From assembly GCA_017509685.1 (NCBI GenBank), contig JAFWPA010000059.1:1-42560 (forward strand): DNA of 42,560 nt, given 5' to 3'. Every line of letters starts with the position of its first letter. Positions within the stretch are counted from its first letter, which is position 1. Positions 1,039-42,560 of the stretch are shown in pieces. This stretch comes from Bacteroidales bacterium (GTDB lineage Bacteria > Bacteroidota > Bacteroidia > Bacteroidales > UBA932). The position numbers and the translations under genes were made by a program. Below the pieces are notes generated by a model. The model did not search any database. It saw only the letters and a list, made by a program, of their open reading frames with translations, and was not told where the DNA came from.

Positions 1039-1127
1039 AAAACACAAAACACTGATATGAAATGAATTTTAGCATTTTTTAACGTGGTTGCAAGCAGCCA
1101 AATCTATCCACATATATTTTGGGGCTG

Positions 1128-4435: not shown

Positions 4436-7048
4436 ATGACATCTAAAGAGATTCGCCAGAAATACCTGGACTTCTTCGCCGGTAAGGGGCACACCATCGT
4501 GCCGTCGGCGCCCATGGTCATCAAGAACGACCCTACGCTCATGTTCACCAATGCGGGCATGAACCAATTCAAAGATATTTTCCTGGGCAATACCGCGCCC
4601 AAGTTCCCCCGTGCGGTCGACAGCCAGAAGTGCCTGCGCGTAAGCGGCAAGCACAACGACCTGGAAGCGGTGGGCCACGACGGCCGCCACCACACCATGT
4701 TCGAGATGCTGGGCAACTGGAGTTTTGGAGATTACTTCAAGAAAGAAGCCATCGACTGGGCCTGGGAACTGCTCACGGAGGTGTACAAGATTGACAAGAC
4801 CAAGCTGTACGCCACCGTTTTCGAGGGCAGCGAGGAAGACGGTACCGCCCTGGACACCGAGGCCCGCCAGGCCTGGCTGAAGCACCTGCCGGAGGACCAC
4901 GTGCTCACCGGCAACAAGCACGACAACTTCTGGGAGATGGGCGACACCGGTCCCTGCGGTCCCTGCAGCGAGATCCACATCGACCTCCGCTCCGACGAAG
5001 AAATTGCCCGGATTCCCGGCCGGGAACTGGTGAACATGGACAACGACGAGGTCATCGAAATCTGGAATCTGGTGTTCATGCAGTATGAACGCAAGGCCGA
5101 CGGCCACCTGGAGTCCCTGCCCGCCAAAAGCATCGACACCGGCATGGGCTTCGAGCGCCTGTGCATGATTCTCCAGAACAAGAAGAGCAACTACGAGACG
5201 GATGTCTTCTCCGGGATCATCGGCCAGGTGGAGAACCTCTCCGGACACAAATACGCCGAAGGCGGCAACGTGGAGGTGGCCATGCGCGTCATCGCCGACC
5301 ACGTGCGCGCCATCGCCTTCTCCATCGCCGACGGCCAGCTGCCTTCCAACGTGAAGGCCGGCTATGTGATCCGCCGCATCCTGCGCCGTGCCGTGCGCTA
5401 CGGCTATACCTTCCTGGGCTTCACCGAGCCCTTCCTGTGCCGCCTCATCCCCCAGTTAGTGGCCGATATGGGCGAAGCCTATCCGGAACTCCCTGCTCAG
5501 CAGAAGCTCATCTCCAACGTGATCAAGGAAGAAGAAAACGCCTTCCTGCGCACGCTGGACCGCGGTATCCGCATGCTGGAAGACAATATGGCCAAGAACG
5601 CCGACACCAAGGTGGTGGCAGGAACCGATGCATTCGTGCTGTACGACACCTATGGCTTCCCTATCGACCTCACCCAGCTCATCGCCGCCGAAAAGGGCTA
5701 CACCGTAGACCTCAAGGGCTTCAACGTGGAACTGGAGAAGCAGAAGGAGCGCGCCCGCAACGCCACCGCCAACGAATTCGGAGACTGGATGGTGTTCAAG
5801 GAGGCCGATGTGGAATTCGTGGGCTACGACGTCCTCCGCATCAAGGGGGTCCATCTCCTGAAGCAGCGCACCGTGAAGCAGAAGAACAAGGAGTACTTCC
5901 AGTTGGTCTTCGACCGCACGCCTTTCTATGCTGAAATGGGCGGCCAGGTGGGAGACACCGGTTTCATCGAGGGTGAAGACGGAGAACGCATCCAGATTCT
6001 GAACACCGTGAAGGAAAACAACCTCACCATCCATCTGGCCGAGCGTCTTCCTTCCGTGAGCAGTCAGACTTTCTACCTGGTGGTGGACAACTCCCGCCGC
6101 CGGCACATCCAGAACAACCATACCTGCACGCACCTGCTGCACCAGGCCCTGCGCGTGATTCTGGGGACCCATGTGGAGCAGAAGGGTTCCTTCGTGGGCC
6201 CGGACTATTTCCGCTTCGACTTCTCGCACTTCCAGAAGATGACCGACGAAGAGCTGCGCGCCGTGGAAACCCGCGTGAACCAACTCATCCGCTCCGACTT
6301 CCCGCTGGAGGAGAAGCGTGACGCCACCATGGAGGAAGCCCGTGGCATGGGCGCCATGGCCCTGTTCGGCGAAAAGTACGGAGATGTGGTGCGCGTGGTG
6401 CGCTTCGGAGACTCCGTAGAGCTCTGCGGCGGTACCCACACGCCCCGCACCGGTACCATCGGCCTGTTCAAGATTGTATCTGAAAGCGCCGTGGCCGCCG
6501 GCGTACGCCGCATCGAGGCCGTCACCGGAGGCAAGGCCATGGAGACCGTGAATCACATGGAAGACCTCCTGAAGGGCCTGAAGAACCTCATGAACAACGT
6601 GCCGGACCTCCAGGGCGCCATCGAAAAGCTGGTAGCCGAGAATGCCGACGCCCGCAAGCAGCTGGAAGCCGTGGCCAACGAGAAGGCCGCCGCCCTGGCC
6701 GAAAAGCTGGAAACACAGGCAGTGGAAGTGAACGGCATCAAGGTGGTACGGTACGACCATGCGTCCGATCCCGCCATCGTGCGCAACGTGGCCCTGTTAT
6801 TGCAGAAAAAGGTCCAGAACTTTGTGCTGGCCGGCGCCTTTGCCTGGGACGGCAAGCCCAATCTGGTGCTCCTGTACTCCAACGACCTCGTTGCAAAGGG
6901 CAAGAACGCCGGTAAGGACATCCGCGAAGCCGCCAAGTTCATCCAGGGCGGCGGCGGCGGACAGCCCGGCCTGGCAACCGCCGGCGGACGTATGGTCGAA
7001 GGCCTCCCCGACGCCTTAAACAAACTAGTCGAGATTGCAACTGCATAA
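4436..7048 (+). CDS. alaS: Alanyl-tRNA synthetase
   Basis: AlaRS charges tRNA-Ala and hydrolyses mischarged Ser- and Gly-tRNA-Ala. The product is 870 aa from ATG 4436 ([19 protein letters not shown]), a normal length. The class II catalytic domain fills about residues 1-450, with motif-like segments such as [15 protein letters not shown]. The editing domain carries HTCTHLLHQ (about 560-568) and CGGTH (about 663-667), which together hold the editing-site metal ligands. The C-terminal C-Ala domain ends in a glycine-rich block, GGGGGQPG, near 838. The next gene starts 3 nt after the stop, so alaS probably heads an operon with the permease-Fmt fusion and thiN. Confidence 0.97.
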
Positions 7049-38560: not shown

Positions 38561-40398
38561 CCCAAGACGGACGTCATATCCGTCTGCTGATTGGCCTGGG
38601 AGCTGCCGCCCTTTTGCTCCTGGGCAAAATTTTTTCTCTCCAGATCCTGGACAACCGGTATAAGGAAGACGCAGACCGCAACTCCACCATCTACGAAACC
38701 ATTTACCCCACCCGCGGCATCATCTATGACCGCAACGGGAAAATCCTGGTGGGCAATAAGGTGGCCTACGATATCCTGGTGAGCCCCCGGGAAGTGCAGG
38801 AGTTCGACACCCTGGCCCTGGCCACCGTGCTGGACGTAGACCCCGAATTCATCCGCGCCAGGCTGGAGGATTACCACCGTCGGCGCACTTCTATCGGCTT
38901 CCAGGCGGTGACTATGCTGCGCACCGTCCCGGCCGAGACCTATATGCGCTTCGACGAAGTGAAGTACAAGTTCCCAGGCTTCCGCGGCCAGGTGAGAAGC
39001 ATCCGGGACTACCCCGTGAACGCGGGCGGCAACCTGCTGGGCTATGTGTCGGAGGTGAACCAGAGCTACATTGACAAGCACCCCGGCGAATACCGCAGCG
39101 GAGACTATGCGGGAATGACGGGCATCGAGGCCGCGCGGGAAGCAGAGCTTCGCGGAGAGAAAGGCTATCACATCTACCTGCGCAACTCCCGCAACCAGAT
39201 TGAACAGTCCTACAAGGACGGCGCCGAAGACAAGGAGGCCGTCCCGGGCCGCAATGTCGTCACCACCATCGACGCTGACCTCCAGCAGTTCGGGCAGGAG
39301 CTCATGCAGAACAAGGTGGGCTCCATCGTCGCCATCGAACCCGCTACCGGGGAGATTCTGGCGCTGGTATCGGCCCCCGGTATCGACGTTAGCATGCTGG
39401 CCGATATCGGCAAGTACTGGAACGAGATCTCTTCCAACCCCTACAAGCCCATGTACAACCGCGCGGTGCAGGCATCCTACCCGCCCGGCAGCGTGTTCAA
39501 GCTGGTAAACGGGCTCATCGGCCTGGAAGAGGGCGTACTGCGTCCGGAAATGACCTATCCCTGCTACCAGGGTTACCACTTCGGGGCGGGGCACAAGTTG
39601 GGCTGTCACGTGCACAAGAGCCCGCTGAACATGGAAGAGAGCATCATGATGAGCTGCAACGCCTATTACTGCTACGTGTTCAAGAACATCCTGGACCAGA
39701 AGAAGTTCGACGACGTGACCCAGGGTCTGGACCACTGGCGGGAGATGGTAATGAGCTTCGGCTTCGGCCGCAAGCTGGAGAGCGACTTCCCGGCCGAGCT
39801 CAGCGGCAGTATCCCCTCTTCCAAGACCTACAACCGGTCCTACGGGCGCGGACGGTGGAACTCCACTTCCGTGATTTCCCTTTCCATCGGCCAGGGAGAA
39901 ATCCTGGCCACCCCCATGCACCTGGCCAACCTGTGCGCCACCATCGCCAACCGCGGGCACTACTTCATCCCGCACATCATCAAGGAATCCGAGGGTGTGG
40001 AAATCGAGGACCGTTTCTATGAGCCGCAGTACACGCTGGTGGACACCCTGCAGTTCCCCAAGGTAATCAAGGGCATGTGGCGGGCGGTGAACTCCGGTCC
40101 CGGCATGGGCGGAACGGCCGCCATCGCGCACGTGGATTCCCTGGACATCTGCGGCAAGACCGGTACGGCGCAGAACCCCCGTGGGGCCGATAATTCCGTG
40201 TTCATCTGCTTCGCGCCTATGGACAACCCCAAGATTGCCATCGCCGCCTACGTGGAGAACGGCGGTTTCGGCGCCACTTACGCAGCGCCCATTGCCTCCC
40301 TGATGGTAGAGAAATACCTGAAGGGACAGACTTCCCGCCCGGCGCTGGAAACCAGAATGAAAGAAGCCGACCTCATGGCCCGTGTGAAGCATGACTGA
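38557..40398 (+). CDS. mrdA: Penicillin-binding protein 2 (elongation transpeptidase)
   Basis: PBP2 is the class B transpeptidase of lateral wall synthesis, paired with RodA. The product is 613 aa from ATG 38557 (MTQDGRHIRLLIGLG). One membrane segment (about 8-28) is followed by the dimerisation/pedestal domain (PTRGIIYDRNGKIL, near 51-64) and the transpeptidase domain with S312xxK315 in PPGSVFKLV, the SCN triad (near 364) and KTGTAQN (near 523). It overlaps mreD by 4 nt and rodA by 8 nt. An upstream in-frame extension over mreD is a shadow. Confidence 0.96.
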   Translation: MTQDGRHIRLLIGLGAAALLLLGKIFSLQILDNRYKEDADRNSTIYETIYPTRGIIYDRNGKILVGNKVAYDILVSPREVQEFDTLALATVLDVDPEFIRARLEDYHRRRTSIGFQAVTMLRTVPAETYMRFDEVKYKFPGFRGQVRSIRDYPVNAGGNLLGYVSEVNQSYIDKHPGEYRSGDYAGMTGIEAAREAELRGEKGYHIYLRNSRNQIEQSYKDGAEDKEAVPGRNVVTTIDADLQQFGQELMQNKVGSIVAIEPATGEILALVSAPGIDVSMLADIGKYWNEISSNPYKPMYNRAVQASYPPGSVFKLVNGLIGLEEGVLRPEMTYPCYQGYHFGAGHKLGCHVHKSPLNMEESIMMSCNAYYCYVFKNILDQKKFDDVTQGLDHWREMVMSFGFGRKLESDFPAELSGSIPSSKTYNRSYGRGRWNSTSVISLSIGQGEILATPMHLANLCATIANRGHYFIPHIIKESEGVEIEDRFYEPQYTLVDTLQFPKVIKGMWRAVNSGPGMGGTAAIAHVDSLDICGKTGTAQNPRGADNSVFICFAPMDNPKIAIAAYVENGGFGATYAAPIASLMVEKYLKGQTSRPALETRMKEADLMARVKHD

Positions 40399-41911
40399 GA
40401 GAGATCCATATAAGAGGCAGTCCATAGACTGGTGGCTGGTGGGGACGTATCTCCTGCTGGTGCTCATCGGCTGGGTGAACATCTATGCCGCCACCCATAC
40501 GTCCGAGGCTGCGTCCCTGCTGGACTTTTCCGGCCGTGCGGGCAAACAGTTCGTGTGGATTCTCACGGCGCTGGGGCTGGCGGCTATCATCCTGTTCCTG
40601 CTCCCGGCCAAACTGTGGGAGGGCATCTGTATACCCTTGTACGGATTTGTGGTGGCGCTGCTGGTGCTGGTAATCTTCGTCTCCTCCAACATCAAGGGTT
40701 CGCATTCCTGGTTTAGCCTGGGACCCATCAGTTTCCAGCCGGCCGAAATCTCCAAGATATCCACTTCCCTGTTGCTGTCCTACTGGCTCAGCCAGCAGGG
40801 ATTCAAGATGACCCGGCTCAAGGACTTCCTGGTGGCGTGCCTCATCATCGGCCTGCCCATGCTCATCATCGTGGCCGAGAGCGAGACGGGCAGCGCCCTG
40901 GTGTACATCGGCTTCATCTTCGTGCTGTACCGGGAGGGGCTTTCCGGCTGGTGGCTGGGACTGATTGGCCTCATCATCCTGCTGTTCATCACCACGCTTA
41001 CGATGGGCCCTTTCTGGGCTATCCTCATCATGATTGCCGTGCTGGTGGCGTGCAACGCCTACATGCAGCCGTCGCGCTTCTGGAAACGGGTGGCCATCTT
41101 CGGCGGCGTGGTGGTGGTGATCGCCCTACTGCCCACCCTGCTTTCCTGGCTGGGAAACCTGGTGACCGCACAGATGGATGCGCTCAACGACCGCATCTGG
41201 GTACCGCAGGCCGATGAGACCAAGGACTACTTCTGGGGCTTCATCCTCAAGATCAAGCCCATCTACGTGATGCTGGGCGGGGCGGCCGTGGCTTTACCGC
41301 TGCTGATGTGGTGGGCCTATCGGCAAAAAGACACCTTCTTGGGCATTTCCCTCATCGCCTTCGTGGTGGGCGTGATGATGGTGTTCTCCACGGACTACAT
41401 CTTCAACAACGTGCTCAAAGACCACCAGCGCAGCCGTATCGAGGTTTTGCTGGGCATGAAGGAAGACCTGGCCGGCGCGGGCTACAATGTGAACCAGAGT
41501 AAGATTGCCATCGGCTCCGGCGGACTGTTCGGCAAGGGCTTCCTGCAGGGGACCCAGACCACCTTCGGCTTTGTGCCGGAACAGAGCACGGACTTCATCT
41601 TCTGCACCATCGGCGAAGAGTGGGGCTTTGCAGGCAGCCTGCTGGTTATCGCGCTGTACGTGTTCCTGATTGTACGGCTGGTCACCGACGCCGAACGATG
41701 TCGCGGCCACTTTGCCCGGGTGTACGGCTACTGCGTAGCCTCCTGCATCTTCATGCACCTGTTTATTAATGTGGGCATGACCGTGGGCCTGATGCCCGTT
41801 ATTGGCATTCCCCTGCCGCTCCTTTCCTATGGCGGCTCCTCCCTGTGGGCGTTCACCATGCTCATTTTTATCTTCCTGGCGCTGTACCGGGACGAGAAGA
41901 AGTATTTTTAG
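40391..41911 (+). CDS. rodA: RodA, SEDS-family peptidoglycan polymerase
   Basis: RodA polymerises lipid II into glycan strands with PBP2. The product is 506 aa with about ten membrane segments, longer than E. coli RodA (370 aa) because of an extended loop (about 225-300, including a membrane segment and LNDRIWVPQADETKDYFWGF). The SEDS signature is clear: FSLGPISFQPAEISKIS, and the C-terminal GLMPVIGIPLPLLSYGGSS. Last gene of the mre operon; 8-nt overlap with PBP2. No typical terminator, but a palindromic element follows. Confidence 0.95.
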   Translation: MTERDPYKRQSIDWWLVGTYLLLVLIGWVNIYAATHTSEAASLLDFSGRAGKQFVWILTALGLAAIILFLLPAKLWEGICIPLYGFVVALLVLVIFVSSNIKGSHSWFSLGPISFQPAEISKISTSLLLSYWLSQQGFKMTRLKDFLVACLIIGLPMLIIVAESETGSALVYIGFIFVLYREGLSGWWLGLIGLIILLFITTLTMGPFWAILIMIAVLVACNAYMQPSRFWKRVAIFGGVVVVIALLPTLLSWLGNLVTAQMDALNDRIWVPQADETKDYFWGFILKIKPIYVMLGGAAVALPLLMWWAYRQKDTFLGISLIAFVVGVMMVFSTDYIFNNVLKDHQRSRIEVLLGMKEDLAGAGYNVNQSKIAIGSGGLFGKGFLQGTQTTFGFVPEQSTDFIFCTIGEEWGFAGSLLVIALYVFLIVRLVTDAERCRGHFARVYGYCVASCIFMHLFINVGMTVGLMPVIGIPLPLLSYGGSSLWAFTMLIFIFLALYRDEKKYF

Positions 41912-42072: not shown

Positions 42073-42080
42073 TACCTTTG
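42073..42080 (+). promoter_or_regulatory. -7 box of the tRNA-Leu gene
   Basis: TACCTTTG matches TAnnTTTG 14 nt before the first tRNA base. A -33 box is not obvious. Confidence 0.5.
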
Positions 42081-42094
42081 CAGTCCCACATTAC

Positions 42095-42127
42095 GCCTTG
42101 GTGGTGGAATGGTAGACACGAGGGACT
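42095..42127 (+). tRNA. tRNA-Leu, 5' half only (interrupted in the anticodon loop)
   Basis: GCCTTGG is the 5' acceptor strand, followed by TG, a D arm with the 3-bp stem GTG/CAC and the loop GGAATGGTAGA, then G26 and the anticodon stem AGGGA with C32 and U33. All fits Bacteroidota class II tRNA-Leu, most likely the UAA or a related isoacceptor whose stem is AGGGA/UCCCU. The sequence expected next (anticodon, UCCCU, variable arm, T arm) is absent. The 3' half is not within the 430 nt that remain. The identity of the anticodon cannot be read, since TAG after U33 may belong to the inserted sequence. Confidence 0.8.
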
Positions 42128-42142
42128 TAGGCTGGTTCTTTG
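42119..42142 (+). other. P1-like helix at the tRNA break
   Basis: Exon bases CGAGGGACT (42119-42127) pair with GGTTCTTTG (42134-42142), nine pairs with four G-U wobbles. The last exon U (42127) pairs with G42134. A U-G pair at the splice site is the hallmark of a group I intron P1 helix, with GGTTCTTT as the internal guide. The six-base loop is TAGGCT. Confidence 0.5.
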
Positions 42143-42151
42143 AAATAATTA

Positions 42152-42183
42152 TTTGTAAGACATGATGGTTGATCTTAACTTTG
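42152..42183 (+). promoter_or_regulatory. Promoter of the HNH gene
   Basis: TTTG (42152-42155), 20 nt, TAACTTTG (42176-42183), then 5 nt to the ATG. Both boxes match the Bacteroidota consensus. It has the same layout as the hicA promoter. Confidence 0.6.
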
Positions 42184-42188
42184 CGTGT

Positions 42189-42560
42189 ATGAGCAAAGCT
42201 AAATATTCAATTGAAGATGTCAAGCAGGCTGTTTCTGACAGCAAGTCTGTAGCGGGTGTCTTGAGGCAATTAGGGCTTAGGCCCATTGGTGGGAACTATA
42301 GAACCATAAATAGGATAATAGCGGAAACCCAAATCGATACTTCTCATTTTACTGGGCAGGGATGGAATGTCGGATTGGCCTTTAAGCCGAACAAGGGCAT
42401 CTCAGATGAAGACATATATGTAAAAGAGTCATCATATAAATGCTCTTGGCGGTTGCGCGAGCATTATAAGAAAACTACAGGCATCGCTCATTGCGAAAAA
42501 TGTGGTTTGGATAGTTGGCAAGCTCACCCTATTCCGCTTGAGATTCATCATATCAATGGT
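42189..42560 (+). CDS. HNH homing endonuclease, partial (3' end off window)
   Basis: From ATG 42189 (MSKAKYSIEDVKQAVSDSKS) 124 codons are visible and the frame is open at the window edge. The N-terminal part (about 5-60) is a helix-turn-helix region (VAGVLRQLGLRPIGGNYRTI, then IDTSHFTGQGWN), common in phage and intron HNH proteins. The zinc-binding CEKC (C102, C105) and the start of the HNH core, LEIHHING (H120, H121), follow. HNH enzymes of this type nick or cut DNA to spread their own element. Base and codon use are much more AT-rich than neighbouring genes, a sign of transfer. The rest of the HNH motif and any later domain are not visible. Confidence 0.88.
   Translation, partial: MSKAKYSIEDVKQAVSDSKSVAGVLRQLGLRPIGGNYRTINRIIAETQIDTSHFTGQGWNVGLAFKPNKGISDEDIYVKESSYKCSWRLREHYKKTTGIAHCEKCGLDSWQAHPIPLEIHHING

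Follow-up and report, generated by a model that had tools for sequence, protein, structure and literature searches.

The window, which is the whole analysed stretch of 42,560 nucleotides from a Bacteroidales contig, ends inside what is almost certainly a mobile group I intron, lodged in the anticodon of a tRNA-Leu(UAA) gene between U34 and A35. Judged by site and fold, the element is of the tRNA-Leu(UAA) kind, a variant with an HNH part in the P1 loop, and by sequence likeness it has relatives in phage tRNA genes. It is apparently mobile; splicing and homing are steps that we infer. Below, G numbers denote genomes and L numbers loci; the window's genome is G000, a bin that is 79% complete, and the window contig (G000:C64) stops at 42560, inside the intron. 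The features are the following:

40391 to 41911, plus strand: upstream neighbour of the tRNA, presumably rodA (named by similarity); the same rodA-tRNA order is seen in sibling G028.
42073 to 42080, plus strand: TAccTTTG, a promoter-like element 5' of the tRNA, read from the sequence.
42095 to 42128, plus strand: tRNA-Leu(UAA) 5' exon, G1 to U34; its letters match the intronless sibling L030 (G028).
42129 to 42560, plus strand: 5' part of the probable group I intron, truncated by the contig end; 100% identical to L002.
42129 to 42160, plus strand: 5' strand of the long P1-extension helix; the contig stops before its partner, which sits towards the 3' end of the HNH ORF.
42176 to 42183, plus strand: TAacTTTG, a possible internal promoter element of the ORF; recurs in relatives.
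42189 to 42560, plus strand: putative HNH endonuclease ORF; the start is conserved in relatives, and the frame runs to the contig end at LEIHHING.
42537 to 42560, plus strand: LEIHHING, the opening part of the HNH motif in the translated frame.

The original prediction reported a class II tRNA-Leu 5' half, which is indeed present at 42095-42128, and the window holds 432 of 725 intron nucleotides if the length is as in L002. On the window, ARAGORN calls no tRNA, Rfam at gathering reports neither a tRNA nor an intron, and Pfam gives no HNH match with the cut frame alone. The sole Rfam report is a SAM-II riboswitch at window 1059-1117 on the minus strand (63.6 bits). The window's own 3' half, sought in G000, returned only a 70-nt overlap and one T-arm match; since this half is missing, the intron core of G000 is deduced from L002. 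The core and the 3' half had been expected to lie outside the window, which is borne out, and both are found in relatives instead.

L002, from a sheep omasum MAG (JAFWSX010000013.1), is identical to the window over 432 of 432 intron nucleotides and over the 34-nt exon. Beyond the shared stretch, it continues with the remaining HNH ORF, an RF00028 core, a terminal G and the 3' exon. The core and the 3' tRNA half, for which the original prediction had proposed a search, thus both lie about 0.7 kb downstream in this identical copy. RF00028 matches at 4478-4673 with 50.3 bits (cut-off 50), and the core is followed by AAAATCCCTTGGGCAG...CCGGGGCA, in which the foreseen rest of the anticodon, UCCCU and the acceptor strand are found, the end pairing with GCCTTGG of the 5' half. 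L003, from a goat omasum MAG, has the same arrangement with 51.3 bits. Of 20 loci, 6 reach the RF00028 gathering score, among them L002 and L003; the other 14 stay below it, and part of these are cut before the core or lack it. A stricter-filter RF00028 scan of the order gave matches in just 3 of 393 genomes. In view of these misses, the Rfam model taken by itself is weak evidence here. With core and 3' half in L002, the idea of an HNH-bearing group I intron in the anticodon loop of a Bacteroidales tRNA-Leu has held up.

The exact site follows from the intronless siblings L030, L067 and L070, in which GGGACTT is directly followed by AAAATCCC, and from the complete intron of L002, which terminates in GGCAAG before the same AAAATCCC; a terminal G precedes AAAATCCC in every complete intron compared. 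The exon had been read as ending at U33, and these loci move the boundary to after U34. Relative to the intronless siblings, the insertion lies between U34 and A35, and the spliced loop is CUUAAAA with anticodon UAA. When intronless sibling loci were given to ARAGORN, it recognised a tRNA-Leu (taa) in 8 of 8, whereas it called no tRNA in 33 of 33 intron-bearing loci (27/27 and 6/6). Upstream, TACCTTTG likewise precedes the tRNA in L002, L006 and L030; both promoter-like elements of the window are read against the Bacteroidota promoter consensus.

The same junctions bear on two other accounts of the insert. Destruction of the tRNA by an inserted stand-alone HNH gene, with no working intron, is very improbable: relatives with no recognised core do exist in L082 and Dulem virus 42, whereas the identical L002 has a group I core, a terminal G and an exact 3' exon, the fold covaries on relatives, and no second copy of the 5' half is seen in G000 (79% complete). 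tRNA genes are common attachment sites of islands, which recommends an integrase-type island using this tRNA as its attachment site; even so, such an origin is next to negligible, as the insert measures only 725 nt in L002 with the HNH ORF as its longest frame, the two halves meet exactly, neither junction shows a duplicated tRNA end, and a ribozyme core is present. For L002 itself, both accounts are rejected on the core, the terminal G and the exact exons.

The fold of the intron was drawn on 10 ORF-less introns of 210-234 nt and consists of 47 pairs distributed over P1, P2, P3, P4, P5, P6, P6a, P7, P8, P9 and P9.1. Over these introns, 98.3% of cells are paired, as against 34-41% in slid versions, a figure that is favoured because the structure was drawn on one of its rows; the stronger part is the two-sided changes, which appear in 9 of the 47 pairs, and 0 of 500 shuffles match the fold. 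P3 and P7 are paired in all 10 introns, P3 being compensatory, with a C-G to U-A exchange divided 5:5, and P7 invariant. At the 5' splice site, U34.G is invariant in 10/10, and the P1 exon ACUU pairs with the IGS GAGU. P1, P4, P6 and P7 are invariant, so that covariation gives no test of these helices. The window insert probably belongs to the group I introns, its core being known from L002 and relatives, and would be self-splicing.

A different P1 had been drawn in the window, a 9-bp helix with a U-G pair at the splice site. This helix is drawable, yet U33.G occurs in only 4 of 20 related introns. It keeps 7 to 9 of its 9 pairs, A31-U fails in 11 of the 20, and the other pairs fall mostly on invariant exon and anchor letters. 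It is not the conserved P1, whose U34.G IGS sits 3' of the ORF.

In ORF-bearing introns, the IGS (GAGUGC) is placed behind the HNH-coding part, at intron position 522 in L002, so that the P1 loop is taken up by the HNH part. The stretch directly 5' of the IGS pairs with the first ~32 nt of the intron. In the best register, this P1 extension is paired in 128 of 133 cells over 7 pairs and 19 rows, L007 and L024 being dropped for lack of an anchor. Over 20 rows (L024 dropped), the hand-summed counts are 136 of 160 cells over 8 pairs in the proximal part (slid, 53-68%) and 210 of 250 cells over 13 pairs in the distal part (slid, 31-60%); with longer stretches that include frayed ends, they become 145 of 220 and 247 of 307. 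In the proximal part 2 pairs change on both sides, in the distal part 5, and some of these pairs lie at frayed ends. The mean duplex energy is -27.3 kcal/mol with own partners, -23.5 with swapped and -13.2 (sd 4.0) with shuffled strands, and swapped strands pair almost as well because both strands are conserved. Read from these alignments, a long covarying extension helix closes the ORF-filled P1 loop.

The HNH-family frame noticed in the window does stay open to the contig end, with a first ATG at 42162, earlier than the conserved start at 42189. The full-length ORF in L002 encodes 206 aa and passes Pfam gathering for both HNH_3 and HNH; HNH_3 is above gathering in 3/3 proteins, and PHROG 10822 is matched by 3/3 (E 1.5e-41 to 5.9e-45). 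Across 14 aligned intron ORFs, the mean column identity is 80% and the HNH motifs are complete, CxxC, LEIHHxNG, DNR and LLCPNCHA being present in 14/14 proteins; the window frame ends within the motif. L010 has ATT at the start codon where the 13 other aligned ORFs have ATG. In an HNH tree of 75 rows, the 12 genus rows form one clade (100/100); the nearest viral lineage is not separated in this tree, in which the bootstrap is unsettled and L157 sits on an absurd branch. Over the phylum, the HNH profile matches in 21 of 395 genomes, for most of them weakly and partially, and a search of solved structures gave 0 matches. The protein is probably a homing endonuclease, its cutting being suggested by the patchy distribution and the identical copy in a distant species. 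In front of the ORF, TAnnTTT lies 12-16 nt 5' of the start in 12 of 14 relatives and in the window copy, the full TAnnTTTG in 5 of 14 and in the window copy; the element may be an internal promoter, and shared descent could account for its conservation.

Such an intron had been expected to be unusual in Bacteroidales, an expectation that did not stand: close relatives are frequent in one genus, and distant ones occur in the tRNA-Leu(UAA) of many viral contigs. An intron occupies the site in 29 of 61 same-genus genomes (G000-G060), three of the 29 having a divergent second type; another 17 genomes are intronless and the remaining 15 are half-seen or without a match, with adjacency of the tRNA halves judged by eye; G047 has one of each. 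The ORF occurs in intact, frameshifted, remnant and absent states. For the 26 genomes with the main type, it is intact as far as visible in 7 (G015 with ATT, G010 open to the contig end), cut early by the contig end in G000 and G004, broken in 3 (G009, G012, G018) and remnant or absent in 14. Among 8 named MAGs, the ORF is intact in 7 and interrupted by in-frame stops in L009. A divergent second type of group I intron occupies the same site in the same genus in L066, L068 and L069 (G039, G056 and G021). Elsewhere, L078 (G308, minus strand) has an ORF-less intron in the tRNA-Leu(UAA) of another family of the order, at 46.4 bits and below the RF00028 cut-off; L081 (G633, minus strand) has an HNH-bearing group I intron that, by reading, sits between U33 and U34 and so one base earlier in the tRNA-Leu; and L077 (G318) has a group I intron apparently in some other tRNA.

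Across 19 genomes, some with incomplete cores, core identity is uncorrelated with RodA identity (Mantel r 0.08, P 0.28), in a comparison of low power because the core is short and conserved. The RodA proteins of G000 and the L002 genome are 52-53% identical despite the 432/432 identity of their introns. The identity of the window copy to L002 is explained by recent transfer or, alternatively, by a chimeric contig end. In the latter case, the intron family would be real and the assembler would have used the shared exon to fuse a rodA-tRNA end with an intron from a different species, so that G000 itself would have an intronless (or other) tRNA-Leu. This we consider unlikely, though well short of negligible. 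Besides the distant RodA proteins, it draws on the window and L002 sharing only ~38 nt 5' of the intron (by eye) before the 432 identical nucleotides, on the L002 upstream flank matching G000 at only 67% and on another contig, on the contig terminating within the intron, and on G028, which of the genomes compared has the nearest RodA (79%) and whose tRNA-Leu after rodA is intronless at the same place. A recent homing event, however, predicts the identical pattern, core identity does not follow RodA identity in the genus, and the upstream 3.9 kb of L002 is not in the G000 bin at high identity.

In the proposed mechanism of the mobile intron, the 5' exon ACUU would pair with the IGS GAGU, placing U34.G at the splice site. 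The core (P2-P9, with the P3/P7 pseudoknot) would bind guanosine and cut after U34, the terminal G would set the 3' splice site, and CUU and AAAA would be joined to the loop CUUAAAA. The HNH ORF in the P1 loop separates the splice site from the IGS, and the long helix would draw both together. As suggested by the distribution, the HNH endonuclease would cut tRNA-Leu(UAA) genes that lack the intron, in which the anticodon arm is highly conserved, and the intron would be copied in during repair of the cut gene. The copies would then decay, from a broken ORF through loss of the ORF to loss of the intron.

The viral set was assembled from at least 80 loci matched by the HNH profile, 58 from a second scan, 33 from a core pattern and the phage records L185 and L301; the IMG/VR contigs are predicted viral, and several loci share contigs. 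The anticodon arm of tRNA-Leu(UAA) is split by a group I core signature in at least 62 of the 173 viral loci examined, which represent at least 43 distinct introns. Of these, 41 have an IGS-like motif, with an HNH motif inside at least 29 and none in 12, and 2 more lack the IGS motif. A stricter script that requires acceptor-stem pairing retains 24 of 80 loci among the matches listed, and 18 of the 24, again among the matches listed, have the HNH inside a class II tRNA-Leu(UAA); L103 and L106 were added by eye to these 18. In L185, a 595-kb GenBank phage, the HNH lies between P6 and P7 by reading, and L301, a 735-kb GenBank phage, has an ORF-less copy. When four viral cores are compared, the best genus cores are 71-80% alike. 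The viral scan for the genus-type core motif gave 0, none of the viral contigs scanned showing exactly the Bacteroidales-type motif, and blastn of the window stretch against phages gave no match. In the plasmid search, the only core match is in 4 Bradyrhizobium records.

Several further arrangements were seen alongside. L186, a Bradyrhizobium plasmid typed as conjugative, has an ORF-less group I intron in tRNA-Leu(UAA) at ~599-886. In L082 (G621), a stand-alone HNH gene at 1501-2049 lies directly 5' of an intact tRNA-Leu(UAA) and overlaps it. L184 (Dulem virus 42) has an HNH inside tRNA-Leu(UAA) at ~1404-2020 with no RF00028 match at E 0.01, its core possibly having been lost by deletion. The viral loci L164, L165, L166, L169 and L170 have a class-I-bodied tRNA with a short variable loop, yet the loop reads CTTAAAA (anticodon UAA); an ORF-less group I intron measuring 198-200 nt interrupts this tRNA, and just 3' lies a gene of the intron-HNH family. 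The introns of L279 and L286 (viral) are apparently in other tRNAs, with low-scoring script anticodons TCT and CAT, and the viral loci L243, L244 and L245 show, by eye, a second N-terminal-like HNH-family motif after the HNH domain.

In five viral introns (L103, L105, L210, L213 and L216), the ORF extends from the P1 loop across the core without leaving its frame, crosses the insert between the P7 strands (the P8 region by reading) and stops at a TAG within the 3' strand of P7. For L103, the start reported by the script is a motif match 3' of the core, and its ORF spans the whole stretch. Among the matches listed, the core frame is read through in 6 of 29 viral introns with an HNH motif, namely these five and L149, and in 0 of 12 without one; in L149 the core frame is open, yet its own HNH ORF stops earlier. 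By tblastn, proteins of Agrobacterium phage Atu_ph07 and Enterococcus phage 113 resemble the intron proteins, and their alignment extends to the C-terminal part of L103 and L105, which by our reading of motifs would be a zinc finger/HTH. The two stand-alone homologues align to either side of the core-encoded stretch, most of whose ~50 residues they lack. Among the 13 ORF-bearing genus copies that could be measured, 10 have an ORF tail that ends at P7 and 3 stop early in the core; of the 13 ORF-less or remnant introns that could be measured, 6 likewise have a core frame open as far as the P7 stop. Coding selection on the Bacteroidales core was considered and rejected, codon-position entropy being alike in ORF-bearing and ORF-less introns. 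An interleaved gene is a reading that we hold to be evenly balanced between right and wrong: the viral ORF would be translated from the HNH through the core into the zinc finger/HTH, with its stop in P7 and the core doubling as a linker, the Bacteroidales form would be a derivative after loss of the last domain, and movement between phages and bacteria would run through the anticodon loop of one tRNA. Should the viral forms have a translated core, a single stretch of RNA would be under catalytic and coding demands together.

In conclusion, intact, decaying, ORF-less and empty alleles stand side by side in one genus, so that the homing cycle could be tested directly in bacteria. A standard tRNA finder misses such genes, as the ARAGORN calls illustrate (8/8 intronless, 0/33 intron-bearing). 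The intron interrupts the same gene as the cyanobacterial and plastid tRNA-Leu(UAA) intron of subgroup IC3, and at the same site, U34/A35. In comparison with that intron, the ORF-less forms of the genus measure 210-234 nt and have the IGS GAGU paired with ACUU; the genus copies differ from it in that many have the P1 loop filled by an HNH ORF and that their presence is patchy from genome to genome. An intron-encoded endonuclease was reportedly described by Bonocora and Shub in 2001 for cyanobacterial tRNA-fMet, another tRNA than Leu, with a fold other than HNH. The cyanobacterial tRNA-Leu(UAA) intron is termed ancient in the accessible part of one paper (PMC3610870). In Beggiatoa and Thiomargarita, another bacterial phylum, group I introns interrupt the same gene, tRNA-Leu-TAA, which is then ~350 bases long, and the accessible part of the report makes no mention of an intron endonuclease (PMC4853749). 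Group I introns are also reported in fMet and Ile2 tRNAs, according to an excerpt of a further paper (PMC8450103).

On the phage side, the intron proteins match the PHROG 10822 family of HNH endonucleases. HNH genes lie in the loops of phage group I introns in Bastillevirinae, where core elements overlap the nuclease genes (PMC11878797), and in Jug phages, which have many group I introns according to a preprint whose main text does not mention tRNA (PMC12363816); the host genes are protein genes in these partial accounts, whereas here the host is tRNA-Leu(UAA). A search of titles and abstract starts, with few subscription journals covered, showed among the matches listed no report of an intron in a Bacteroidales tRNA-Leu or in a phage tRNA. 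The main text of the huge-phage paper has no word beginning 'intron' (PMC7162821), and that of the group I intron database paper names tRNA once, for plastids, and has no Bacteroid- or phage words (PMC11835236). In the available part of a 2014 review, all phage introns then observed were in protein genes despite the many phage tRNAs, and there was little evidence of bacterial introns moving between bacterial species (PMC3984707). The present family bears on both points, phage tRNA introns and movement between bacterial species.
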